38,082 nt of DNA from Acidobacteriota bacterium (GTDB lineage: Bacteria; Acidobacteriota; UBA6911): positions 79,588 to 117,669 of the forward strand of contig JAAYCX010000059.1 in the NCBI GenBank assembly GCA_012729555.1, in the 5' to 3' direction. Within the stretch, counting starts at the first letter, position 1; each line of letters opens with the position of its first letter. Shown one piece after another: positions 4,324-29,798 of this stretch. Made by a program: the position numbers and the translations under genes. The notes under the pieces were generated by a model, which saw nothing but the letters and a program-made list of their open reading frames with translations, did not search any database and was not told where the DNA came from.

Positions 4324-5799
4324 TTACGCGGGGGACGACGAGTCTATGGGGCCGATGAAATCCACGTTCATCCGCATCATTTCCTCACGCAGCGCCTTCG
4401 TGTAGACCCCGGCCACCATCACGTGATGGATCCCCATGATCTTCTGGAGGAACACATCGGCGTCGCGGACCTCGAGTTCGACCCGGTTGGAGCAGTACCG
4501 CCGCATTTCTTCCATCCCGGCGGGCGGGTTTTCGAAGGAAGGCTGGGCGGTGTCGTCGATCCCCTCCCGCGTTCTTCCCGGCCAGGCCACGAACGTCCCG
4601 AGATCCTTGCTGAACCCGCCCAACGTCACCTCGAGGCCCGCGGGGAAGGAGACCTGGGGCGTGACGCCCCCCATCCCATGGTAGTCCCGGAGCTTGTAGG
4701 GGAGGGCCGGGGCCTCCCGCCCCAGCAACCGCAGCGGGGCGACGCAGTGGCGCAGCACGGTCCTCGATTTTTCGAGGTCCACGGAGGAGACGTTGCAGAA
4801 ATAGGAGGGCTTGCGGCTGATCTCCTGGAGAACGATGGTGGTCAGCATGCCGCACACGTCCGCCTCGCACGGGAAGGCGTACCCTTCGTCACGCAACCGG
4901 GTGAAGGCCAGGCAGGGGACCGGCACCTTCCGCTTGGCGTCGAAGGAGAAGCTCAGGCAGTCGATCGAGAGCCCCGCCAGGCCCTCCCTCTCCACGATCG
5001 AGCGAAGGAGTACGTACATCCTGGAGGCTTCCAGGAGCACGTCGTCCGTGGGCTCGACGACGGCGGCCGCTTCCCTCTTCCACCGCTCCATCTCCCCCCT
5101 GGCGTCCCCCGCGCTCACGCCCCCCAGCAGGTCCGCCAGTTGCTCCACCGGCCGGTGTTCCAGGCGGACTCCCGTCCGGTTGTAAACCATCTCCGCCGTC
5201 AGGTCGCGCGACGGCACGCTCGAGGAATCGAACGGCCGGCCGTAGATGACGGCCCGCTTCCCCTCGAGCAGCCTGGGGGCGGCCAGGATTTTCATCAACT
5301 CGATGGCGTGCGCCTCCGAGTTGGCCAGGAGGGCGTTCGCGCCCTTGACCCGGAACCCCGCGGCGGCGTTCGCCTCCATCATGATCAGCTCCGGGACCGG
5401 GGGGAGCAGGATCATCGGGACGTCGATCGGGTCGAGTTCCACGGGAAGGTTCCCGGCATTCAGCATCGTACGCGGCAACCCGAAGAAGAGGATGTCCGGG
5501 TCCTCCGCCCGGATGGCCCGGGTGATTTCCTGCGGCTTCTGGTAATCGGCCCTGGCCGTGACCACGGAAAACTCGAATTCCCTTATGGCCTTCACCGACT
5601 GGATCAGCCGCTCGTAGGACTGGGGGGCGTCGCTCAGAAGGAGCAGTTTGCGCCCCTTCCCCGCGTAGGCGCGCCTGCGCATGCCTGTGGAAGGTCGGGC
5701 CATCACCTCCGGAAGGGCGGTGGCCATGCCCGCCAGGGCCGTCGTCCTGATAAAATCGCGTCTTCCCACGTGAATGCAGCCACAGTGCCCGTTCGCCAT
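4324..5799 (-). CDS. TAT-exported L-fucose/L-arabinose isomerase-fold protein
   Basis: The 491-residue product starts with a twin-arginine leader (GRRDFIRTTALAGMATALP, about residues 12-30), so the protein is probably folded in the cytosol and then exported. The body resembles the FucI/AraA-like sugar isomerase superfamily: an N-terminal Rossmann-like part (VVTARADYQKPQEITRAI, DPDILFFGLP), a middle part with LSIDCLSF and CLAFTRLRDEGYAFPCEADVCGMLTTIVLQ, and a C-terminal barrel part with HCVAPLRL and HGMGGVTPQV. The EADVCGMLTT-type segment is typical of proteins annotated as L-fucose isomerase C-terminal domain proteins. Ribosome site AAGGGAGAG lies upstream of the ATG. An exported isomerase is odd, so the real reaction may differ. 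It lies 100 bp downstream of the flavoprotein gene and may be cotranscribed. Confidence 0.72.
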   Translation of the reverse strand: MANGHCGCIHVGRRDFIRTTALAGMATALPEVMARPSTGMRRRAYAGKGRKLLLLSDAPQSYERLIQSVKAIREFEFSVVTARADYQKPQEITRAIRAEDPDILFFGLPRTMLNAGNLPVELDPIDVPMILLPPVPELIMMEANAAAGFRVKGANALLANSEAHAIELMKILAAPRLLEGKRAVIYGRPFDSSSVPSRDLTAEMVYNRTGVRLEHRPVEQLADLLGGVSAGDARGEMERWKREAAAVVEPTDDVLLEASRMYVLLRSIVEREGLAGLSIDCLSFSFDAKRKVPVPCLAFTRLRDEGYAFPCEADVCGMLTTIVLQEISRKPSYFCNVSSVDLEKSRTVLRHCVAPLRLLGREAPALPYKLRDYHGMGGVTPQVSFPAGLEVTLGGFSKDLGTFVAWPGRTREGIDDTAQPSFENPPAGMEEMRRYCSNRVELEVRDADVFLQKIMGIHHVMVAGVYTKALREEMMRMNVDFIGPIDSSSPA

Positions 5800-17899: not shown

Positions 17900-19060
17900 C
17901 TATCCCAGCTGGGTGATGAAATAGCCGGCGACGATGGTGGTGCCGATGACGCCCGCCACGTTGGGTCCCATGGCGTGCATGAGGAGGTAATTGGAGGGGT
18001 CGCTCTTTTGGCCTTCCACCTGGGCCACCCGCGCCGCCATGGGAACCGCGGATACGCCGGAAGCTCCGATCAGGGGGTTGAGCGGATTTTTGGAGGAGAG
18101 CAGGTTCATGAGCTTGCCCATCAGGATCCCGCTGGCGGTGGAGAGGGCGAAAGCGCAGACGCCCAGGGCGATGATTTTCAATGTCTGGGGGGTCAAAAAC
18201 CGGTCGGCGCTCATGGTGAAGCCGACGCTGGTGCCCAGAAAGATCGTCACGACGTTGATGATCTCGTTCTGGCTCGATTTCACCAGCCGCTCGGTGACCC
18301 CGCATTCGCGGAGGAAATTGCCCAGCATCAGCATGCCGATCAGGGCCGCTGACGCAGGCACGAGCAATATGCACGCGACGCAGACGATCAGCGCGAAGGC
18401 CATTCTTTCGAGCTTGCCCACCGTGCGCAGCGACCGCATCCGGATTTTCCGTTCTTTCGCCGTGGTCAGCAGGCGCATGATCGGGGGCTGGATCAGCGGC
18501 ACCAGCGCCATGTATGTGTAGGCGGCGACCGCAATGGGGCCGATCAGGTCGGGCGCCAGTTTGGATGCCGTGAAGATGGAAGTCGGGCCGTCAGCGCCGC
18601 CGATGATGCCGATGGACGCCGCTTCTCCAGGCGTGAAGCCGAGGGCGATCGATCCCAGGAAGGTGGCGAAAATTCCGATCTGGGCGGCGGCTCCCAGCAG
18701 GAGCGTTCGGGGGTTGGCGATCAGCGGTCCGAAATCGGTCAGCGCGCCTACACCGAGGAAAATGATGGGCGGAAAGAGCTCCCATTCGATCCCTTTGGAA
18801 ATGTAGTAATACAGGCCTCCCGGCGCCATCGAGCCGTCGGGCTGGACAAGGGGGGGGTTGACCACGCCCAGGGTCGGAAGGTTGGCGATCAGGGCGCCAA
18901 ACGCTATGGGCACCAGCAGGAGTGGCTCGAATTCCTTGTACACCGCGAAATAGAGGAGGAGGAGCACCACCCCCCACATGATGACCTGGCCCCCCGATAC
19001 CTGCGCGAAGCCGGTGTCGGCCATAAAGCGGGCAAAACCCTGTAGCATGCCGAAGTCCAT
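17900..19060 (-). CDS. sodium-translocating decarboxylase subunit beta (OadB/GcdB/MmdB family)
   Basis: The 386-residue protein is the membrane channel subunit that couples decarboxylation of a carboxybiotin to Na+ export. It is hydrophobic throughout and shows family marks: FLGVGALTDFGPLIANP, GFTPGEAASIGIIGGADGPTS (the conserved Na+-site region with the Asp in IGGADGPT), TVGKLERMAF and PLIGASGVSAVPMAARV near the C-terminus. The gene starts 3 bp after the biotin-carrier gene stop with only a weak ribosome site, so translation is probably coupled. The operon order gamma-like, biotin carrier, beta is that of methylmalonyl-CoA or glutaconyl-CoA decarboxylases. No carboxyltransferase alpha subunit is in the window. 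Confidence 0.92.
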   Translation of the reverse strand: MDFGMLQGFARFMADTGFAQVSGGQVIMWGVVLLLLYFAVYKEFEPLLLVPIAFGALIANLPTLGVVNPPLVQPDGSMAPGGLYYYISKGIEWELFPPIIFLGVGALTDFGPLIANPRTLLLGAAAQIGIFATFLGSIALGFTPGEAASIGIIGGADGPTSIFTASKLAPDLIGPIAVAAYTYMALVPLIQPPIMRLLTTAKERKIRMRSLRTVGKLERMAFALIVCVACILLVPASAALIGMLMLGNFLRECGVTERLVKSSQNEIINVVTIFLGTSVGFTMSADRFLTPQTLKIIALGVCAFALSTASGILMGKLMNLLSSKNPLNPLIGASGVSAVPMAARVAQVEGQKSDPSNYLLMHAMGPNVAGVIGTTIVAGYFITQLG

Positions 19061-19062
19061 CC

Positions 19063-19449
19063 TTATGCGAGCGTTACGAGAACCGCGCCTTCCTCGGCCC
19101 GCATGCCCGGTTGTGCCTGAATCGAAGCGATCACGCCGTCCTGCGGCGCCCATACGGGGGTGTTCATTTTCATGGCTTCAAGCATGACCAGGAGGTCGCC
19201 CTTCTTGACCCGCTGCCCCTGCTCCACATGGACGGTGACGACGATGCCGGACAGGGGACACAGGACCCTCCCACCTTCGGCCGCCGGCTGCGGCGTCGGT
19301 GCGACATGCCGGGGGGGGTGCAGGACGGGGGCCTGTGGCTGCACCGGGATCGCGGCCTGCGGGTAACCGGCGTTATCGTCCAGCAGTTCCGCCGTGACGT
19401 CATAGACCTGGCCGGCGATGGTGATACGGATGTGTCGTGTGATGGACAT
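19063..19449 (-). CDS. biotin carboxyl carrier subunit of the decarboxylase
   Basis: The 128-residue product has an N-terminal strand region (HIRITIAGQVYDVTAELLDD), a Pro/Ala-rich flexible linker (about 31-58) and a C-terminal biotinyl domain with the biotinylation motif EAMKM, Lys94, flanked by GDLLVML and the usual Gly-rich hairpin. It carries CO2 from the carboxyltransferase to the membrane beta subunit. The linker plus biotinyl domain plan is that of MmdC/GcdC. Ribosome site AAAGGA lies upstream. Gaps of 10 bp to the gamma-like gene and 2 bp to the beta gene indicate one transcript. Confidence 0.92.
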   Translation of the reverse strand: MSITRHIRITIAGQVYDVTAELLDDNAGYPQAAIPVQPQAPVLHPPRHVAPTPQPAAEGGRVLCPLSGIVVTVHVEQGQRVKKGDLLVMLEAMKMNTPVWAPQDGVIASIQAQPGMRAEEGAVLVTLA

Positions 19450-19459
19450 GGCGAATCCT

Positions 19460-19972
19460 TTACCTGTATTTCTTCAGAGTCGGGCGCCGCCTCGGAACGC
19501 GGGCCCTGCCGATCGGCGGCCTCAGGTTGCGCACGGCCCCGCGCTGGGAATAGGCATGCGAATCAAAGATCTGCCGCCGGCCTTCCCCCCCCCACCAGTT
19601 TTGCTCGTAGGGACCAAGGACCGGGGCGACCCGGTGGATGCGGAAAGCCCGATCGTCGAGCACCACCGCCACCGCCGCGGCAATCACCGCCGGGAGGAGC
19701 GGGTCGCCGGAGGTCGCGGGCGATCGCTGGGGGTCTGCCGCGGAAACCGGCACGAAGCCCGGTGCCGCAGGCCTTCGGCCGCCGCGCTCCAGGCGCTGGA
19801 AAAAAAACCCGGTGGCGGTACAGAACAGGCTGATCCCGGCCAGCGCCGTCAGGACAATGAACACCCCCAGGACCAGAAAACCCAGAACCTCGCCCCACGA
19901 CGGTTGCGCCGCGAGCGCCGGGACTTTAACTTGAAACTGGTCTGAAATGAGACCCAAGGAGGAGGCGTCCAT
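19460..19972 (-). CDS. OadG-like gamma subunit of the decarboxylase
   Basis: The 170-residue product has one membrane helix (about 26-52, LGFLVLGVFIVLTALAGISLF), a Pro/Arg-rich linker, and a C-terminal part with DPLLPAVIAAAVAVVLDDRAFRI-type helix and the WGGEGRRQIFDSH motif seen in OadG-family proteins of this larger kind. It helps assemble and anchor the complex. The ATG at 19972 is the first in-frame start giving a normal N-terminus, but it has no Shine-Dalgarno sequence; a TAGAAT box ends 8 bases before it, which suggests a leaderless transcript. It is the first gene of the minus-strand operon with the biotin carrier and beta subunit. Confidence 0.82.
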   Translation of the reverse strand: MDASSLGLISDQFQVKVPALAAQPSWGEVLGFLVLGVFIVLTALAGISLFCTATGFFFQRLERGGRRPAAPGFVPVSAADPQRSPATSGDPLLPAVIAAAVAVVLDDRAFRIHRVAPVLGPYEQNWWGGEGRRQIFDSHAYSQRGAVRNLRPPIGRARVPRRRPTLKKYR

Positions 19973-19980
19973 AGAGCGGT

Positions 19981-19986
19981 ATTCTA
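19981..19986 (-). promoter_or_regulatory. -10 box directly before the gamma-subunit start
   Basis: TAGAAT on the minus strand ends 8 bases before the ATG at 19972, within an AT-rich stretch. A start of transcription about 7 bases downstream would fall on or next to the start codon. No consensus -35 is evident at 16-18 bases. Confidence 0.4.
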
Positions 19987-20152
19987 AAAAAACAAAGAAG
20001 GCGACATATTCAAAACAACATACGGCTGCGGTCATTCTGTTTGCTTATATTTTTCCCTCGCCAATTAGTTATTATAATGTCTCCCGGAGTGGAAACCAAT
20101 GGCTATATGCAGCCAGGAGCCGCATCTCGAAGACGCCGGTCTTCCCCGGGAC

Positions 20153-21216: not shown

Positions 21217-23601
21217 TTATCCCTTGCCCAGCGCCTTGAGCACCTTTTCGGGCGTGGCCGGCGATTCGACCCATTTGCCGGTGGCGTTGTGGATGGCCAT
21301 GATGACCAGGTGCGTGTTGGCCAGGCTGTGGCTGATGCCGTTGGCACCGTAACACGCGTTCCCCGCCCGTGTTTCCAGCAGGTCCAGGTCCACCCTGGGC
21401 ATGTCGAGCATCGAGACCTTCCGGTAGTCGAACATGTTCGTGCTGAGTTTCACCCCGGTCGCCGGGTCGTAGACATATTCCTCCTGGAGCTGACACCCGG
21501 CGCTGAAGTCCATCACCTGGTCGATCTGGCTCTCGAGCGACGTCAGGCGCAGGATCTTCCCCGGATCCGCCGCGACCCCGAACCGGAGGATTTCGACCTC
21601 CCCGGTTTCGGTGTCCACGGCGACCTCGCACGCCGCCACGTTCATCGTGTCGAGCGCCCTGCCGCGCTGGTTCCAGAGGGCCAGCGGCGGCCGGCCCGAA
21701 TAGGTCGCGAACAGGTTGGCCCGGACGGCCCGGGCCAGGGGAAGCCCCTTGCCCGGATCGGCCTTGACGACCACCCTGCCGTCCCGCATATCCAGGTCCT
21801 CCGGCTTCAGCCCCTTGAAGGGGTTCGGGGCCTGCGCGGCCGGGCCGCGCCCCATGCTGATGCCGCCGGCGGCCGCCGGGGCGTTGGCCTCGGTGACGGC
21901 CGCTTCCAGGATCCGCTCCTTGAGGATATGGGCGCATTCCTTCATGGCCCAGGAGGACGCCGTAGACCCGTCGCTCCCCCCCCCGTAAGGGCGGTAGATC
22001 TCCTGGGAATCGAGCTCGATGCGGATATCCCCGTATTCGAGCCCCAGTTCCTCGGCGATGACCATCGCGTTGCATTCCAGGCCGTAGTGGCCGATGGTGG
22101 GACCCTGGGACGCCAGGACGACCTGGCCCCTGCGCAGTTCCAGCTTGGTGTTGTACGTCATCCCGGAATGGCGCGGGCACTGGTTGTAGCGGAAGCTCGC
22201 CCCGTGCAGGCGCCCGTCGGGGAGCTTTCCGGCCCCGGTGGGGTGCCACCGCCACTGCATCCTCTTCTTGAGGGCGGCCACGCACGCCTCATAGCTGGGG
22301 ACCGGGTCGGGGTCGTCCTGGGACCGGGGCCCGTGCAGGTTGAGCGTCGCGATCTCGATCGGGTCCTTCCCCAGTTTCTCCGCGATCAGGTAGAGCCCCA
22401 CCATCAGGGAATCCCACGACATCGGGTTGTGCTGACCGCTGACGTACATCTTGCCGCGGTTGCTGTCGACGACCTCCATCCTCTGCCGGACATTCGTGCA
22501 GCGGGTGGTGAAATAGGGGCCGTACGTCTGGTCCATCGTGTTGCCGAAAATGGAGCTGCCCCGGACGCCGCCGTCGGCGACTGAGAAATCGTCGACGGCC
22601 GTGATCCTTCCGTCGCCTGTGAAGCCGACCTTCATGTGCACGTAGCGCTGGCTCAGGTTGAGGTCGTACATCTCGTAACGGTTGTTGACGCAGCGCACCG
22701 GCCGGCCCGCCCTCCTGGCAAGCAGCGGGGTGATCAGCTGAGTCTTGCGGTTCCCCCAGTCGCAATACCTCCCCCCCAGGAACATTCCGTCGCGGAAGAT
22801 CTTTTCCGGGGGGAAGTGGTACAGGTCCCCGATCGAGTCCTCGGTCCAGGCGGGGATCCCCTCGATATGCAGGTTCTTTCCCTCGCCGTGGACCGCGTCG
22901 TCGAACCACCAGGCGACCGAACCGGTCGGGTTGGGGATATGGCCGGAAAAGGCGGCCGTATTGACGTCGTATTCGATGATGTGGTCCGCCTCGCGGAACC
23001 CGGCCTCGATGTCCCCGTCGTTGACGTTGGAATAGGAGACGTTCCCTTTCCTGGGGGGATTCTGGCCGCCGGCCGGACCCGGACCGCCGCTTCCCCCGTC
23101 GGGACCGGGGTAGGGGGGCGCCGGCCGGATCACGGCCGCCTCCGGCTCCCGTCCCTTGCGCAGGTCGATGACGTGGGGCAGCACCACCCAGTCCACCTCG
23201 AGAGCGCGCAGGGCCTCCTCGCAGATGTCCTCATTTTCGGCGACGACGATGACGCCGACCTCGGCCCCCTCCTGGTCGGCGATGTTATCCAGGAAGGGCT
23301 CGGACGGGCCTCCCATGAATCCCCCCCCGAGGCGCAGGCTCCGGACGTCCTCGTCCTCCCAGGTGAGGACATCGACGACTCCCGGGACGGCCCTCGCCTT
23401 CGCGGTGTCGATCGACCGGATCCAGGCGTTCGCGTAGGGGCTCCGGAGGAACTTGGCCTCGAGCATGTGGGGGACGACATAGTCGAGCCCGAATTTCGCG
23501 ACCCCGGTCACCTGGGACCAGGACAATACCCCGGGCAGGTTCGGTTTCCCGACAACCCTGAAATCTCTTCTGGTTCCGTTTGCGCCTTCCAGGTCGGCCA
23601 T
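21217..23601 (-). CDS. xanthine dehydrogenase-family molybdopterin-binding subunit, catalytic Glu replaced
   Basis: The 794-residue product is the large subunit of the molybdenum hydroxylase family: an a/b hammerhead domain (about 15-130: TGVAKFGLDYVVPHMLEAKF, SPYANAWIRSIDTAKA) and the molybdopterin domains (about 190-780). It ends with the family AIHNATGKWV and TPEKVLKALGKG segments. At the site where the family has GxGE, this protein has GISH, so the catalytic base glutamate is His758. The paralogue at 34316-36718 keeps Glu761. No Fe-S or FAD partner gene is adjacent. The ATG at 23601 is spaced correctly from GAGGGGAG; an in-frame GTG at 23610 is too close. There is no TAT or Sec leader. 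A TAAAAT box at 23677-23682 may drive it. Confidence 0.87.
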   Translation of the reverse strand: MADLEGANGTRRDFRVVGKPNLPGVLSWSQVTGVAKFGLDYVVPHMLEAKFLRSPYANAWIRSIDTAKARAVPGVVDVLTWEDEDVRSLRLGGGFMGGPSEPFLDNIADQEGAEVGVIVVAENEDICEEALRALEVDWVVLPHVIDLRKGREPEAAVIRPAPPYPGPDGGSGGPGPAGGQNPPRKGNVSYSNVNDGDIEAGFREADHIIEYDVNTAAFSGHIPNPTGSVAWWFDDAVHGEGKNLHIEGIPAWTEDSIGDLYHFPPEKIFRDGMFLGGRYCDWGNRKTQLITPLLARRAGRPVRCVNNRYEMYDLNLSQRYVHMKVGFTGDGRITAVDDFSVADGGVRGSSIFGNTMDQTYGPYFTTRCTNVRQRMEVVDSNRGKMYVSGQHNPMSWDSLMVGLYLIAEKLGKDPIEIATLNLHGPRSQDDPDPVPSYEACVAALKKRMQWRWHPTGAGKLPDGRLHGASFRYNQCPRHSGMTYNTKLELRRGQVVLASQGPTIGHYGLECNAMVIAEELGLEYGDIRIELDSQEIYRPYGGGSDGSTASSWAMKECAHILKERILEAAVTEANAPAAAGGISMGRGPAAQAPNPFKGLKPEDLDMRDGRVVVKADPGKGLPLARAVRANLFATYSGRPPLALWNQRGRALDTMNVAACEVAVDTETGEVEILRFGVAADPGKILRLTSLESQIDQVMDFSAGCQLQEEYVYDPATGVKLSTNMFDYRKVSMLDMPRVDLDLLETRAGNACYGANGISHSLANTHLVIMAIHNATGKWVESPATPEKVLKALGKG

Positions 23602-23770: not shown

Positions 23771-25852
23771 CTATATGGCGCGCCCGATGCGGGAGCCGTC
23801 CCCGATCGCGTCGATGATCAGGGCGGGGTTCCCGCAGTCGCCGATCTGGTAGATCTCTGGCGCCGTCCCCTCCAGGCTCCTGACCCTGTCGGCGTCCGGA
23901 GCCATGGCCAGAGCCGGCAACAGGGTGTCCGCCGGCAGGGTCTTCCTCTCCCCTTCCCTGGTGGTCACCGTCAGCCCCTGATCCGTTATCCTTTCATACC
24001 GGACGCCGGGCAACAGGGGCACTCCCTTCCGCTGCAACCACCAGAAGAGGCGGACTTTGTAATTCTCGATCACCCCTTCCCCCATTTCCTCGGCCGTGTC
24101 CACTACCGTCACCTTTCTGCCCCGTTTGACCAGGAACACGGCCAGCTGGAGACCATGGATGCCTCCGCCGATGATGACGACCCTCTTGCCGACCGGCATC
24201 CATATTTTCGTGGCCCGGTTGAGCAGCCCGGGGCCGAAAAACCTCAAATATTTCTTCAGCCGGCGGTTCAGGGCGGCGGCCCGGACCACTTTGCCCGATT
24301 CGATACCCGGAATCTCCGGAACGGCATACTCCCCTCCCGTGGCCAGGATGAGGACGTCGGGCCCGACCCGCTCCACAAGCGCCCTGTCCACCTCTTTGCC
24401 CAGGTGGATCCTGACGCCCAGCCGGGCGATCTGCGTCTCGAGGTAGCGCACCAGGGCCGGGAGGTCTTCGATTTCGAGCCCCTTGATCGTGGCGGCGACG
24501 GGTACGGACCCTCCCAGCCGATGCTCCTTCTCGTAAAGCGCGACTTCATGCCCCCTCAGGGCGGCCACCCGTGCGGCCTCCATTCCCGCCGGTCCGCCAC
24601 CGACGACCATGACCCTTTTCTTCCTGGGCGCCGGCCGGATCTCGAATTCGCGCTCCCTGGTCAGGGCGGCATTGATGCGGCAGCAGGACTTCCCCTCGAC
24701 CGGGTGCGTATGGATGGCCTCGATGCAGGAAAGGCAGCGCGTGCAGGGGGCGATATCGTCCAGTCTCCCGGCGGCGATCTTGTTGGGGAATTCGGGGTCG
24801 GCCAGCAGTTGCCGCGTCATGCCGATGAAGTCCGCCCGGCCCTGCAGAAGGATCCTCTCTCCCATTTCGGCGTCGATGCCGGCGGTGGCGATCACCGGTA
24901 TGGACACCGCCTTCTTGACCATGGCCGACAGGGGCACCCAGAACCCCGCCCCGCTTTTTCTCCCGTCGAGCCCTTCCGGCAGGGGATCGGGGACCTCCGG
25001 GTAGCAGACCGTTTCGGGCCAGTTGATCAGGCAGTAGACCGGGCCGAAGCCGTCGGCCTTGGGATGGAGGTTGTCCGCGCCGGCGGCTTCGAATATCCGG
25101 CCGAACTCCACTCCCTCCTCGGGGGTGATACCGTCGTCTATCCCGTATTCGGCGGCGTTGTAAAGGACGCCGATCGGGAAGTCCTTGCCCAGGCGCCGCT
25201 TCATTTCCTTCAGGATCTCCACCGTGAACCGGGAGCGGTTTTCCAGGCTCTGCGGGCCGTATTGGTCCCCGCGCCTGTTCCAGTGGCGGGACATGAAGGT
25301 GTTGCCCAGGTGCTGCGTGCCGCAGTGGACCTCCAGGTGGTCGATCCCCGCCTTCTGGTAACGCTCCGCAGCCTTGACGAACTTCTCCTGAATGTCCTCG
25401 ATCTCGGCGATGCTCGCCTCGACGGTTTCATCGCTCCAGTTCCCGTACACTTCCTCTCGCATCACGGATGCGGCTATGGGCGGGCGCCCGGAAAGGGACG
25501 CCGGGCACCAGGGCCCGGCATGCATCATCTGAACGGACAACCGGCAACCATGTTTGTGGACGGCATCGGCCAGCCTGCGGAAACCCTCGATGTATTCGTC
25601 GGCGTCGATGCGCAACCCGTCGGCTATCCTTGCGCCCAGGGGGTAATCCAGGTAGGCGTTCCACAGGATGATCATGCCCGCGCCGCCCCTGGCCACCGCC
25701 TCGATGTAGTCGATGGTTTTCTGGTTCATGTGAAAATCGTGCGGGTCATGGGTGTTCATTTCCGCGGCGGTTTTGATGATCCGGTTCTTGATCCGCAGCT
25801 TCCCGATGTTGCAGGGGGACAGCAGCTTCTCAAATGGCGCCTTCCCGCTCAT
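23771..25852 (-). CDS. OYE / 2,4-dienoyl-CoA reductase-type NADH:flavin oxidoreductase, second copy
   Basis: The 693-residue product has the same plan as the protein at 9427-11526. An FMN barrel spans about 1-360 (IKNRIIKTAAEMNTHDP, MSRHWNRRGDQYGPQSLENR, FIGMTRQLLADPEFPNKI). A cysteine cluster follows (Cys370, 373, 376 and 390/391, CTRCLSC then SCC). The FAD/NAD(P) domain has RVMVVGGGPAGMEAARVAALR and VVIIGGGIHGLQLAVF. Substrates of the group are alpha,beta-unsaturated CoA esters, bile acids or steroid enones. It differs from copy 1 in the active-site loop (HCGTQHLGNTF against NAASSHLFHNF), so the two may act on different intermediates. The start at 25852 follows AAGGAGAAACGATC; a longer frame to 25909 has no ribosome site. 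Confidence 0.88.
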   Translation of the reverse strand: MSGKAPFEKLLSPCNIGKLRIKNRIIKTAAEMNTHDPHDFHMNQKTIDYIEAVARGGAGMIILWNAYLDYPLGARIADGLRIDADEYIEGFRRLADAVHKHGCRLSVQMMHAGPWCPASLSGRPPIAASVMREEVYGNWSDETVEASIAEIEDIQEKFVKAAERYQKAGIDHLEVHCGTQHLGNTFMSRHWNRRGDQYGPQSLENRSRFTVEILKEMKRRLGKDFPIGVLYNAAEYGIDDGITPEEGVEFGRIFEAAGADNLHPKADGFGPVYCLINWPETVCYPEVPDPLPEGLDGRKSGAGFWVPLSAMVKKAVSIPVIATAGIDAEMGERILLQGRADFIGMTRQLLADPEFPNKIAAGRLDDIAPCTRCLSCIEAIHTHPVEGKSCCRINAALTREREFEIRPAPRKKRVMVVGGGPAGMEAARVAALRGHEVALYEKEHRLGGSVPVAATIKGLEIEDLPALVRYLETQIARLGVRIHLGKEVDRALVERVGPDVLILATGGEYAVPEIPGIESGKVVRAAALNRRLKKYLRFFGPGLLNRATKIWMPVGKRVVIIGGGIHGLQLAVFLVKRGRKVTVVDTAEEMGEGVIENYKVRLFWWLQRKGVPLLPGVRYERITDQGLTVTTREGERKTLPADTLLPALAMAPDADRVRSLEGTAPEIYQIGDCGNPALIIDAIGDGSRIGRAI

Positions 25853-25938
25853 GATCGTTTCTCCTTCGGGGGTTTCTTCCGGCCCTGTTTTGAAAAAATC
25901 GGGCGACATCTGACGAGCCCGTTATCGGGATGCCTTCC

Positions 25939-26014: not shown

Positions 26015-26407
26015 TTAGAGTTCGGCACAAACGACTTTTACGAATTTGCCGTTCTCGAGATGGTAATGGATGAACTGCGGGATAACGGCGGTCTGTCCGA
26101 CGGCCAGCGGCTTCAGCTTCGGATAGTCGGAAGCGGCGACGGTTTCCGGGGACAATTCCCTCACACCCTCGATCCGCACCCTGGCCTCGAGCGCGATGGT
26201 GGACGCGTCCGAAACAAAACGGTCCACGATCACGCTCTCCTTGATGTAGGCGTGAAGAAAAGCATAGAACTTCTTCACCGCCTCCCGGGATTTGAGAGAA
26301 CCCGCGACATGGATCATCTCGAAATCGTCGGCGAAATAATCGAGGAACCCGTCGTAATCCCTGCCGTTGAATTTTTCCAGGTAAACATCGAATTCTTCGC
26401 GCGTCAT
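26015..26407 (-). CDS. SnoaL-like / NTF2-fold protein
   Basis: The 130-residue protein has the cone-shaped NTF2 layout: N-terminal helices (EFDVYLEKFNGRDYDGFLDYF), the strand ADDFEMIHVAG, the helix SREAVKKFYAFLHAYIKE, then long strands (STIALEARVRIEGVREL and TAVIPQFIHYHLENGKFVKV). SnoaL-like proteins include polyketide cyclases, ketosteroid isomerase relatives and limonene epoxide hydrolases. No catalytic set can be assigned with confidence. The ATG follows GGAGAGAGGAC and a good promoter (26457-26484) precedes it, so this is the first gene of a minus-strand run that leads into the OYE-type and molybdenum-enzyme genes. Confidence 0.8.
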   Translation of the reverse strand: MTREEFDVYLEKFNGRDYDGFLDYFADDFEMIHVAGSLKSREAVKKFYAFLHAYIKESVIVDRFVSDASTIALEARVRIEGVRELSPETVAASDYPKLKPLAVGQTAVIPQFIHYHLENGKFVKVVCAEL

Positions 26408-26874: not shown

Positions 26875-28431
26875 TCACGGTTCCGCCCGCGCCGCCCTGA
26901 CCCGGGCGAAGTGGGTGTCGAACGCCAGGATCTTTTCGAGATCGGGATGTTTCCTCGCTCCCGACTCGCCGTCTATGTACAGGACCCGGGGATCCTTTTC
27001 ATCGAAGGCGGGCCAGTGCGGCAGGCCGGGCCCGTTGGGATCCCCGTTCCGGGCGAAATGGACCCAGTACGACTGGAGCCTCTCGGCCAGGGCCTGGGCC
27101 CCGGGACCGGCGCCCCCCCCGGTCATCCCGGGTGTATCGAGCGTGCCGAACACGTACCGGATCTCGTCGGCGTGGTTGGCGCCGTCGGGGGACGCCGGTG
27201 TCCGGTGGTCGAAGTAGTACACGAAGGCCTTGTGCCTCCCGTTTCGGGCCTGCAGGGTGGCCCAGGCCCAGGTCGGCCAGGCGAAGGTGGAATCACGCAT
27301 GATGTCCCTGGCGGACCGCGAGGCTTCTTCGTCCGTGGCGTGCGGGTAGGCGGCCAGCAGAACGTCGGCCCCCTCCGGGTACTGTCCGCGCACCATCCGC
27401 TCGAACCCGTCCCGCGTCACCGGCTGCGTGACGAACAACCCCCCTTCGTTCGAGTTGGTGCCGACGAGAATGGGGGTGTCGTTGAACCGGCCCGCCAGGT
27501 AGCGTTCGTACTGGTCCGCCACGATCGTCTCCCCGTCCGGTACGGGCCAGAAGCTCCCCATCCCCCTGGTGTTGCGCTGGATCTCCTCCGCCCCGAGGGC
27601 GCGGGCGGCGCGGATATCCCCGGCCCCCAGGGCGGCCAGGTAGGCCTTCCCCTGCGCCTCGGCCGCGGCCCGCGTCATGCGCGGCGGCGCCATCGACCCG
27701 CCGCTCTGGGAAATGGCGCGCTGGAACAGCCCGGCCGCCCCGGGCGATCCCGCCAGCATGGCGACCGAAATGCCTCCGGCGGATTCCCCGAAGAGGGTCA
27801 CGTTGGCCGGGTCGCCCCCGAACCGGGCGATGTTCTCCTTCACCCACCGGAGGCCCGCGATCTGGTCCTGGATCCCGTAAGCGCCCGAGCCCCCGCCGCT
27901 TTCGGCACTCAGTTCGGGGTGCGCCAGGAATCCCATGGGGCCGACGCGGTAGGCCACGCTTACGAGAACCACCCCCTTCTTCGCCAGGCTCGTGCCGTCG
28001 TAGGCGGGGGAGCTTGTCATACCGATGCCGAAGCCGCCGCCGTAGATCCAGACCATGACGGGACGCTTCTCGTCCGTGGTCCGGGCCCCCGTCCAGACGT
28101 TCAGGTAGAGGCAGTCCTCGCTGATCTCCTGCGGGCCGCCGAGCAGCGCGCCGAAGGCGGTATCCTGCATCGGGCCGGGGGCGAACCGGTCCGCCCGCTT
28201 CACGCCGTCCCACGGCACCACCGCCTGCGGCGCTTTCCAGCGCAGGGCGCCGACCGGGGGCGCGGCGAAGGGAATGCCCTTGAAGGCAAGGATCCCGTCC
28301 CCGGCCACCCCTTCCACGATGCCGCCCGTCACGGTTACCCTGGTCGTAACCGGGTCCGGGGAACCGCATCCGGCCGCGCAGAATGTCAGGGCGAGTATCA
28401 CGAACCAGCTCCGGCGCTGTCGTAGCCTCAT
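26875..28431 (-). CDS. type B carboxylesterase, lipoprotein
   Basis: The 518-residue product has a lipoprotein signal ending in CAAGC (Cys22) and a full carboxylesterase type B alpha/beta-hydrolase domain. The oxyanion motif is YGGGFGIG (about 130-137), the nucleophile is Ser217 in GESAGG, the acid is Glu329 in TNSNEGG, and the base is His420 in GANHADE. EDCLYLNVW is the second family signature. It would hydrolyse esters in the periplasm or at the outer membrane. The start at 28431 follows AAGGAGTCGCC. It is the last gene of the operon with the MFS carrier and cupins (gap 59 bp, containing a CCCCGC/GCGGGG hairpin at about 28454-28475). Confidence 0.93.
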   Translation of the reverse strand: MRLRQRRSWFVILALTFCAAGCGSPDPVTTRVTVTGGIVEGVAGDGILAFKGIPFAAPPVGALRWKAPQAVVPWDGVKRADRFAPGPMQDTAFGALLGGPQEISEDCLYLNVWTGARTTDEKRPVMVWIYGGGFGIGMTSSPAYDGTSLAKKGVVLVSVAYRVGPMGFLAHPELSAESGGGSGAYGIQDQIAGLRWVKENIARFGGDPANVTLFGESAGGISVAMLAGSPGAAGLFQRAISQSGGSMAPPRMTRAAAEAQGKAYLAALGAGDIRAARALGAEEIQRNTRGMGSFWPVPDGETIVADQYERYLAGRFNDTPILVGTNSNEGGLFVTQPVTRDGFERMVRGQYPEGADVLLAAYPHATDEEASRSARDIMRDSTFAWPTWAWATLQARNGRHKAFVYYFDHRTPASPDGANHADEIRYVFGTLDTPGMTGGGAGPGAQALAERLQSYWVHFARNGDPNGPGLPHWPAFDEKDPRVLYIDGESGARKHPDLEKILAFDTHFARVRAARAEP

Positions 28432-28490
28432 GGCGACTCCTTGATGAGAATGTCCCCGCTTCGGCGGAGGCGGGGGTGCGGTGATGCGCC

Positions 28491-29798
28491 CTACCCCGCC
28501 AGGCTTCTCCCGATGTCGGCCCTGACATGCCGCCCGGCCCAGAGGTAGAAGAGGGCTCCCAGCATGCTCGACGCCGCCACGCAGAGGAGCGAGTACCGGA
28601 TGGCGAGCGGGCCGTACCGGCCCTCGAGGAGGTCGTTGAGCACCCCGATGAGGAGGGGGCCGGCGGCCGAGCCGACGATGGTGCCGATCATGAACAGGGT
28701 GGCCGCGGCGAACGCCCGCATGCGGACCTTGACCACGCTCTGCACCAGGCCGAGAATCGGCCCCATGCGGAACGTCAGGAGGATCATGGCGAAAAACAGC
28801 CCCACGTAGGTCCACGGCAGGGGGGCGAAGAGAAACACCATCAGCACCGGGCCGGCCAGGAGCGAGGTCACGCCGGGCCCGACGATCTTCCACCGGTCGT
28901 CCCTTTTTCCCAGGCGGCCGATGACGGCGCCCCCCAGGAGGACCCCGGCGATGCCGGCGACCGAGTTCAAGGTTCCCCCGAACGTGCTGGCCTCCAGCAG
29001 CGAGGTGCCGTGCACCCGCTGCATGAAGGGGACGAACCAGGTGGCCAGCGCCAGGTCCGCGATGCCGGAGAAGGTGAACCCGATCACGATCAGCAGGTAG
29101 GTAGTGTTTTCAAAAAAGAAGCGCACCGTCTCGCCGATCCCGTACTCCCGGACATCGGCGTGTTTCCCGTCCTGGATGCCGCGCACGGGCTCCCTGACGG
29201 TGAAATACAGGAGCGCGGCCACGATGAAACCGGGGATGGCGACGGCGACGAAGGCCCCGCGCCACCCCCAATGCGAGGAGCCCACGATCCCCCCGATCCA
29301 GGCCGCCACCAGGCCGCCGATGCAGGGGGCCATGGACATGATGGCCATCGCCATCGGCAGTTTGTCCCTGGGGAAGAAATCGGAGACCAGGGAGTTGCCC
29401 GGGGCGGGGGACACGGCGCCGCCGATGCCGAACCCGATCCGCGCCAGGACCAGCTGCAGGACGTTTTGCGCGAATCCCCCCAGCGTGGTCAGGACGCTCC
29501 AGAACGCGACCCCGATCGATATGATCGCCAGCCTTCCCTTCCGGTCGGCGAGTCGCGCCACCGGCATGGAAAGAAGCGACCCCAGCAGGGTGACGACGAT
29601 CCCGGCGATCAGCCCCATCGCCGTGTCCGATACCCGGAAATCGTTCTTGATCTGCTCGAGCACGACATTGACGATCTGGATATTGGCGAACTGCAGCGCC
29701 CATACCAGCGTCAGGAGAACGAGCACGTAGTAGGCCCTCGTCAGCGAAACGCCCGTTCCCCGTTCCGGCTCCCGCCCGACCGATTCCTCTGGTTTCAT
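28491..29798 (-). CDS. MFS transporter
   Basis: The 435-residue product has twelve predicted membrane helices and major facilitator marks: the loop 2-3 motif VARLADRKGR (GxLADRxGR-like), RIGFGIGGAVSPAPGNSLVSDFFP after helix 4, and the weaker repeat GRLGKRDDRW in the second half. It resembles the spinster/hexuronate-like bacterial carriers of organic acids and aromatic compounds. It probably imports the compound released by the neighbouring esterase or exports a product; direction and substrate are inference. Ribosome site GTGGGGGATTC is moderate. It lies 63 bp after the single-cupin gene. Confidence 0.9.
   Translation of the reverse strand: MKPEESVGREPERGTGVSLTRAYYVLVLLTLVWALQFANIQIVNVVLEQIKNDFRVSDTAMGLIAGIVVTLLGSLLSMPVARLADRKGRLAIISIGVAFWSVLTTLGGFAQNVLQLVLARIGFGIGGAVSPAPGNSLVSDFFPRDKLPMAMAIMSMAPCIGGLVAAWIGGIVGSSHWGWRGAFVAVAIPGFIVAALLYFTVREPVRGIQDGKHADVREYGIGETVRFFFENTTYLLIVIGFTFSGIADLALATWFVPFMQRVHGTSLLEASTFGGTLNSVAGIAGVLLGGAVIGRLGKRDDRWKIVGPGVTSLLAGPVLMVFLFAPLPWTYVGLFFAMILLTFRMGPILGLVQSVVKVRMRAFAAATLFMIGTIVGSAAGPLLIGVLNDLLEGRYGPLAIRYSLLCVAASSMLGALFYLWAGRHVRADIGRSLAG

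Follow-up and report, generated by a model that had tools for sequence, protein, structure and literature searches.

Background

In the XO family of molybdenum enzymes, the active-site Glu is held to be essential for hydroxylation, and it has also been proposed as the proton donor in reductive reactions. The family includes reductive dehydroxylases, namely 4-hydroxybenzoyl-CoA reductase (4-HBCR) and Ucdh (PMC12771579). HcrA, the alpha subunit of 4-HBCR (PDB entry 1rm6), represents the reductive phenol dehydroxylases of anaerobes and keeps the Glu (GAKEASE) as well as the GGGFG and RGHG motifs. Ucdh/UcdO, the urolithin C dehydroxylase of the gut anaerobe Enterocloster bolteae, is an XO-family enzyme that works in the reductive direction with NADH as donor in vitro (PMC12771579). 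It is reported to be 32.7% identical to 4-HBCR and so close to that type; it is set beside the protein studied here by description. PaoABC, the periplasmic aldehyde oxidase of E. coli, is an oxidase without an NAD(P)H module. It has a Glu-type large subunit.

Results and discussion

An XO-family large subunit with His in place of the catalytic Glu

The protein P0001 is encoded on the minus strand at positions 21217..23601 of the window, i.e. the whole stretch of 38,082 nucleotides of acidobacterial DNA that was analysed. On translation, its open reading frame starts with an ATG at 23601, ends with a stop codon at 21217 and yields 794 amino acids. The Pfam domains Ald_Xan_dh_C (a/b hammerhead), MoCoBD_1 and MoCoBD_2 were detected in this order, all above their curated cut-offs. 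HcrA was both the best PDB sequence match, with about 21% identity, and the best Foldseek match; the two proteins have the XO-family fold and the S-L-M plan in common. P0001 nevertheless fails the NCBIfam equivalog of 4-hydroxybenzoyl-CoA reductase (TIGR03194), with a score of 154.4 bits against a cut-off of 994.55. The Cu-binding Cys loop VAYRCSFR of CoxL (aerobic CO dehydrogenase) has YVSGQHNP as its equivalent in P0001, and the Arg is absent. An AF2 model matched the folds of 1rm6 and XDH with Z scores up to 32.6, matches that indicate the family only. The mean pLDDT of this model is 72.9, and values below 50 are found exactly in the cofactor loops (273-284, 383-393, 541-545 and 752-755), so that the geometry of His758 relative to Mo, and that of Cys280, is unreadable from it.

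Domain order and fold matches thus uphold the membership of P0001 in the XO family, of which one hallmark is missing, the catalytic Glu of the GxGE segment (XDH Glu1261). The corresponding motif YGANGISH (residues 751-758, 21328..21351, minus strand) ends in His758, encoded by CAC at 21328-21330. In phmmer and profile alignments, the GISH of P0001 lies opposite the ASE segment of 1rm6 without gaps, pairing the His with the Glu, and by motif position 758 is XDH Glu1261. The replacement reported in the initial annotation is therefore borne out by both the translation and the alignments, and all the coordinates given there were correct. The motif column holds His in 64 out of 64 non-redundant full-length homologues, which we call the His clade, so that the Glu is missing throughout. 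The preceding Ser757 is variable, one of the 64 sequences reading GIAH. In the Glu set, 32 of the 34 sequences having a residue in this column carry Glu and the remaining 2 carry Gln.

We considered a sequencing or assembly error, a frameshift, or a chance substitution in a single decaying gene, and give these a vanishingly small probability: no point in their favour was found, the 64 homologues come from many assemblies and all agree, and the frame is intact, as the initial annotation had maintained. We also looked for another Glu that might substitute. No conserved Glu was gained near the motif, and the acids specific to the His clade are Asp281, Asp397 and Asp544.

The window encodes a Glu-type paralogue, P0002 (34316..36718, minus strand), a family member by Pfam and placed by the tree in a sister clade; it reads GSYGLGE with Glu761, just as annotated. 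P0002 keeps its Glu, but its Mo-loop, GFAWLAYS, is unusual and no subunit genes adjoin it; several P0002-like genes are present in the same genome.

A single clade with a patchy distribution

The 64 homologues are 45-95% identical. It had been asked whether proteins with the ISH motif form a clade. In our tree all His sequences fall in one clade (SH-aLRT 100), which spans at least three bacterial groups and has the P0002-type Glu clade as its sister. A second group of relatives, from a Deltaproteobacterial class (L159-L165), reads GIGE. These two groups (P0002 with L004, L006 and L008 for the former) are the nearest relatives by tree or profile score; unlike P0001, they keep the Glu, the Arg and a Gly-containing Mo loop, and the P0002 type is found in the same genomes as the His type.

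All 10 genomes of one Acidobacteriota genus had homologues, whereas none of the 5 genomes sampled from the three remaining genera of the family did. Of 210 genera sampled from the phylum, 1 had homologues. They were also recovered from Clostridia of termite guts and digesters, Sporobacter termitidis DSM 10068 having three copies, and from a few genomes of one Deltaproteobacterial class. They were found in 2 of 394 Oscillospirales genomes and in 4 of 398 genomes in a wider phylum sample. Judging from their isolate names, several of the MAGs appear to be of termite-gut origin. The genome carrying the window has three further His genes, one on contig C11, one on C44 and one divided between the ends of contigs C4 and C13; the two halves of the last are presumed to be one gene from their overlapping ranges. 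This patchy spread suggests horizontal transfer. A plasmid search returned distant XDH-type proteins only (about 27% identity). No characterised member of the His clade was found, and literature searches on the His variant, on links to anaerobic etherases and on Michael hydratase returned nothing on this clade.

The second of two tandem His-clade genes in an Oscillospiraceae MAG (L055:3857-6220, plus strand) is open except for one in-frame TAG at 5282-5284, which may reflect a pseudogene, an error or amber read-through. Two other genes (L087:1382-3523 and L089:7020-9161) form a distinct GISHCMA subgroup, whose neighbours are a tungsten aldehyde ferredoxin oxidoreductase-like gene and a Tat-type 4Fe-4S protein.

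A coordinated remodelling of the active site

We compared the 64 His-type sequences with 39 Glu-type sequences, residue by residue. The two residues 757-758 change from Gly-Glu to Ser-His in the His clade. The loop that elsewhere reads [FY]-G-G is C280-D281-W282 in P0001 (22756..22764, minus strand), Cys280 being found in 64 of 64 sequences where Gly is found in 39 of 39; position 280 is presumably XDH Gly799. The stretch that follows this loop is shortened, again specifically in the His clade. Asn224 (22930..22932) replaces a Glu, Ser388 (22438..22440) an Arg and Gln695 (21517..21519) a Gly, each of the replaced residues being present in 39 of 39 relatives; all three codons lie on the minus strand. 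In most or all His-clade sequences, Asn stands at position 224, Cys at 280, Ser at 388 and Gln at 695, the last in all 64 of them. By the motif RGFG, position 388 corresponds to XDH Arg880; it is Arg in none of the 64 members (mostly Ser, otherwise Gly, Cys or Leu). The family hallmark formed by Arg880 and the Gly after the aromatic residue of the GG-x-F-G loop is thus lost in the His clade and kept in 39 of 39 relatives. The roles of XDH Arg880 and Glu1261 have been reviewed (PMC3624778). In total, 101 columns are invariant across the His clade, and 19 residues that never vary there are hardly ever seen in other sequences. These include Cys280, Asp281, Asp397 (22411..22413, minus strand; 64 of 64, His clade only), Arg477-His478, Asp544, Gln695 and His758; Gln390 also belongs to the invariant set of the clade.

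The change in the active site is therefore a coordinated replacement of several residues, larger than a single Glu to His exchange. The earlier reading is right on the exchange itself but missed that conserved loops have also lost an Arg, a further Glu and two Gly, so that a simple swap does not describe the change. This bears on whether P0001 still works oxidatively, as a hydroxylase or dehydrogenase. In such an enzyme, His758 would serve as the base for the Mo-OH ligand in the role of the Glu and only substrate specificity would differ. The fold and the alignment position of His758 are the same, as such an enzyme would have it; however, the loss of Arg388, Glu224 and the two Gly goes beyond the needs of a base swap, and the Glu to Ala mutation at this position inactivates the D. 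gigas aldehyde oxidoreductase (PMC3624778). We consider this reading rather unlikely. In our judgement, the initial annotation was right to allow for a reaction other than hydroxylation.

The same replacements might serve a non-redox or net redox-neutral enzyme, such as a hydratase or a transhydroxylase-like enzyme, with Mo as a Lewis acid or oxygen shuttle and His, Asp and Cys in acid-base catalysis. Groups suited to it were gained (Cys280, Asp281, Asp397, His423, His478 and His758), and oxygen shuttling by Mo has a precedent in the pyrogallol-phloroglucinol transhydroxylase of the DMSO-reductase family (PMC10420851). On the other hand, genes for a full electron-transfer chain lie beside 18 of 60 His-clade genes, and the NAD(P)H module fused in the clostridial complexes would be superfluous; we regard a redox-neutral reaction as improbable.

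Selection, partner subunits and cofactor genes

Compared with orthologues that are 75-90% identical, P0001 has a dN/dS of 0.08-0.16; values against more distant orthologues are affected by dS saturation. The genes that adjoin 18 of the 60 His-clade genes encode the S (two-[2Fe-2S]) and M (FAD) subunits, with Fer2/Fer2_2 and FAD_binding_5/CO_deh_flav_C domains, in operon with relatives of P0001. Full S-L-M sets occur in Sporobacter and other Clostridia, as in the S. termitidis operon at L064:5223-10713. The window copy and most acidobacterial copies have no adjacent S or M genes; homologues of these are found elsewhere in the same genome (contigs C97, C98, C39, C92 and C65). Directly after the paralogue on C11 lies a gene for a MocA-like cytidylyltransferase, and the genome has two XdhC homologues, which argues indirectly for MCD as the predicted cofactor, Mo being bound in the XO family as MCD/MPT with a sulfido ligand. 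MCD binding is not certain, since a number of the loops touching the pyranopterin in characterised enzymes are changed.

These data bear on the proposal that P0001 is a binding-only partner, i.e. a cofactor-free or catalytically dead partner or scaffold. Residues universal in Glu-type sequences have been lost and the window copy stands without adjacent partner subunits, as might be expected of such a protein, but the gene is under purifying selection (dN/dS of about 0.1 against close orthologues), 101 columns are invariant over 64 sequences, relatives lie in [2Fe-2S]/FAD operons and a MocA-like gene neighbours the paralogue. We hold this alternative to be very unlikely. From the low dN/dS, the complete operons and the MocA-like gene, P0001 is predicted to be probably a live redox subunit and not a pseudoenzyme.

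The partners differ between lineages. A Fer4_20/Pyr_redox_2 module is inserted in the clostridial FAD subunit; it is similar to NfnA and GltD and would be NAD(P)H-linked by sequence. A twin-arginine-type signal, as read by eye, is present on the FeS subunit of the acidobacterial complexes and of one from a Deltaproteobacterium, so that this form is probably periplasmic; the signal is a PaoABC-like feature of the acidobacterial complex. 4-HBCR is marked by a [4Fe-4S]-binding 4-Cys insertion in its FAD subunit. The FAD subunit of the L081 type has a 4-Cys insertion, is closest to the PaoB type rather than to 1rm6_B, and has this insertion in common with the PaoABC FAD subunit. We rejected the 4-Cys insertion as proof of a reductive direction: it also occurs in PaoB and in the medium subunit of one more aldehyde oxidase, both oxidative. 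The likeness of the acidobacterial complex to PaoABC in signal and FAD subunit favours an oxidative enzyme, as does the fact that NAD(P)H modules can work in both directions.

The [2Fe-2S] subunits at L064:5223-5993, L081:2484-3380 and L102:2-490 have a C2H2 zinc-finger-like CxxC...H...H stretch before the 2Fe-2S domain, which is unusual for this subunit type; the Pfam zinc-finger matches are weak. At L101:6720-9643 (contig C65), a [2Fe-2S] and FAD pair without adjacent large subunit is followed by a U32-peptidase-like gene. A protein of about 360 amino acids, with no Pfam or NCBIfam family, adjoins His-clade genes at L081:4348-5439, L080:5125-6267 and L074:8794-9873.

Gene neighbourhood and preferred function

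All the genes described here upstream of P0001 are on the minus strand. They encode a Fe-S flavoenzyme with matches to the Oxidored_FMN/BaiCD-like enoate reductase family (23771..25909), a SnoaL-like small protein (26015..26407), a carboxylesterase family protein (26875..28893, its true start being probably further in, as the frame overlaps the next gene) and an MFS transporter (28491..29798). A homologue of the flavoenzyme, together with a SnoaL-like gene, also occurs near the His-clade paralogue L081. An MFS homologue lies directly upstream of the closest orthologue, 90% identical, in L043; the other three of these genes are not beside that orthologue. Sodium-pumping decarboxylase-like genes (beta subunit, biotin carrier and gamma-like; 17900-20035, minus strand) lie just downstream of a DUF3795 gene in the window, and the L043 orthologue is likewise followed by homologues of the two outer ones. 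At 7 of 60 His-clade loci, mainly clostridial, we found SDRs whose best PDB likeness is to lignin C-alpha-dehydrogenases. Sporobacter encodes 18 Fe-S flavoenzymes (PMC7371122).

With the clade and its replaced residues established, the reaction and substrate are what we infer from this context. We are rather confident that there is an active enzyme of the XO family here whose site has been remodelled. Because of the window neighbours, the lignin-type SDRs, the Sporobacter Fe-S flavoenzymes and the known reductive 4-HBCR and Ucdh, we tentatively prefer, at slightly less than even chances, a reduction at a C-O bond of a plant phenolic in which His758 donates the proton, P0001 being the Mo (MCD) subunit in an anaerobic complex of the XO family. 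The plant phenolic itself is a guess from the gene neighbourhood. Several points count against this preference: 4-HBCR, a known reductive member, keeps its Glu, so that reduction is possible without Glu loss, and the 4-Cys FAD insertion, found in oxidative enzymes too, leaves the direction undecided. Further points are the lack of S and M genes beside most acidobacterial copies, the changed pyranopterin loops and the mainly clostridial occurrence of the SDRs.

In the preferred reaction, electrons would enter at the FAD subunit, coming in Clostridia from NAD(P)H through the fused glutamate-synthase/Nfn-like module and in Acidobacteriota from a periplasmic donor, and would pass through the FeS clusters to Mo. 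There they would drive the reductive cleavage of a C-O bond in a phenolic of plant origin, or its dehydroxylation, with His758 donating a proton to the leaving oxygen. The organism of the window would rely on S and M subunits encoded in trans. A more speculative possibility, which we think has little chance of being correct, is a re-ligated site: Cys280, replacing the Gly of the loop that faces the apical position of Mo, would coordinate Mo, and His758 would act as general acid in reductive aryl C-O cleavage.

Conclusions

A conserved clade in which the Glu, the Arg and the loop Gly are replaced while the electron-transfer partners are kept is a natural experiment on the Mo sites of the XO fold. 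A re-ligated site, if real, would have no known counterpart among the Mo sites of the XO family, and it would mean that anaerobes cleave aryl C-O bonds reductively in this way, in a phenol or a lignin-type beta-aryl ether. Little is known of the enzymes that break down plant aromatics in the anaerobes of termite guts and digesters, where the His clade occurs in several copies per genome. One of these anaerobes, Sporobacter termitidis, is cultured, and the function of the His clade can thus be tested in a cultivated strain.
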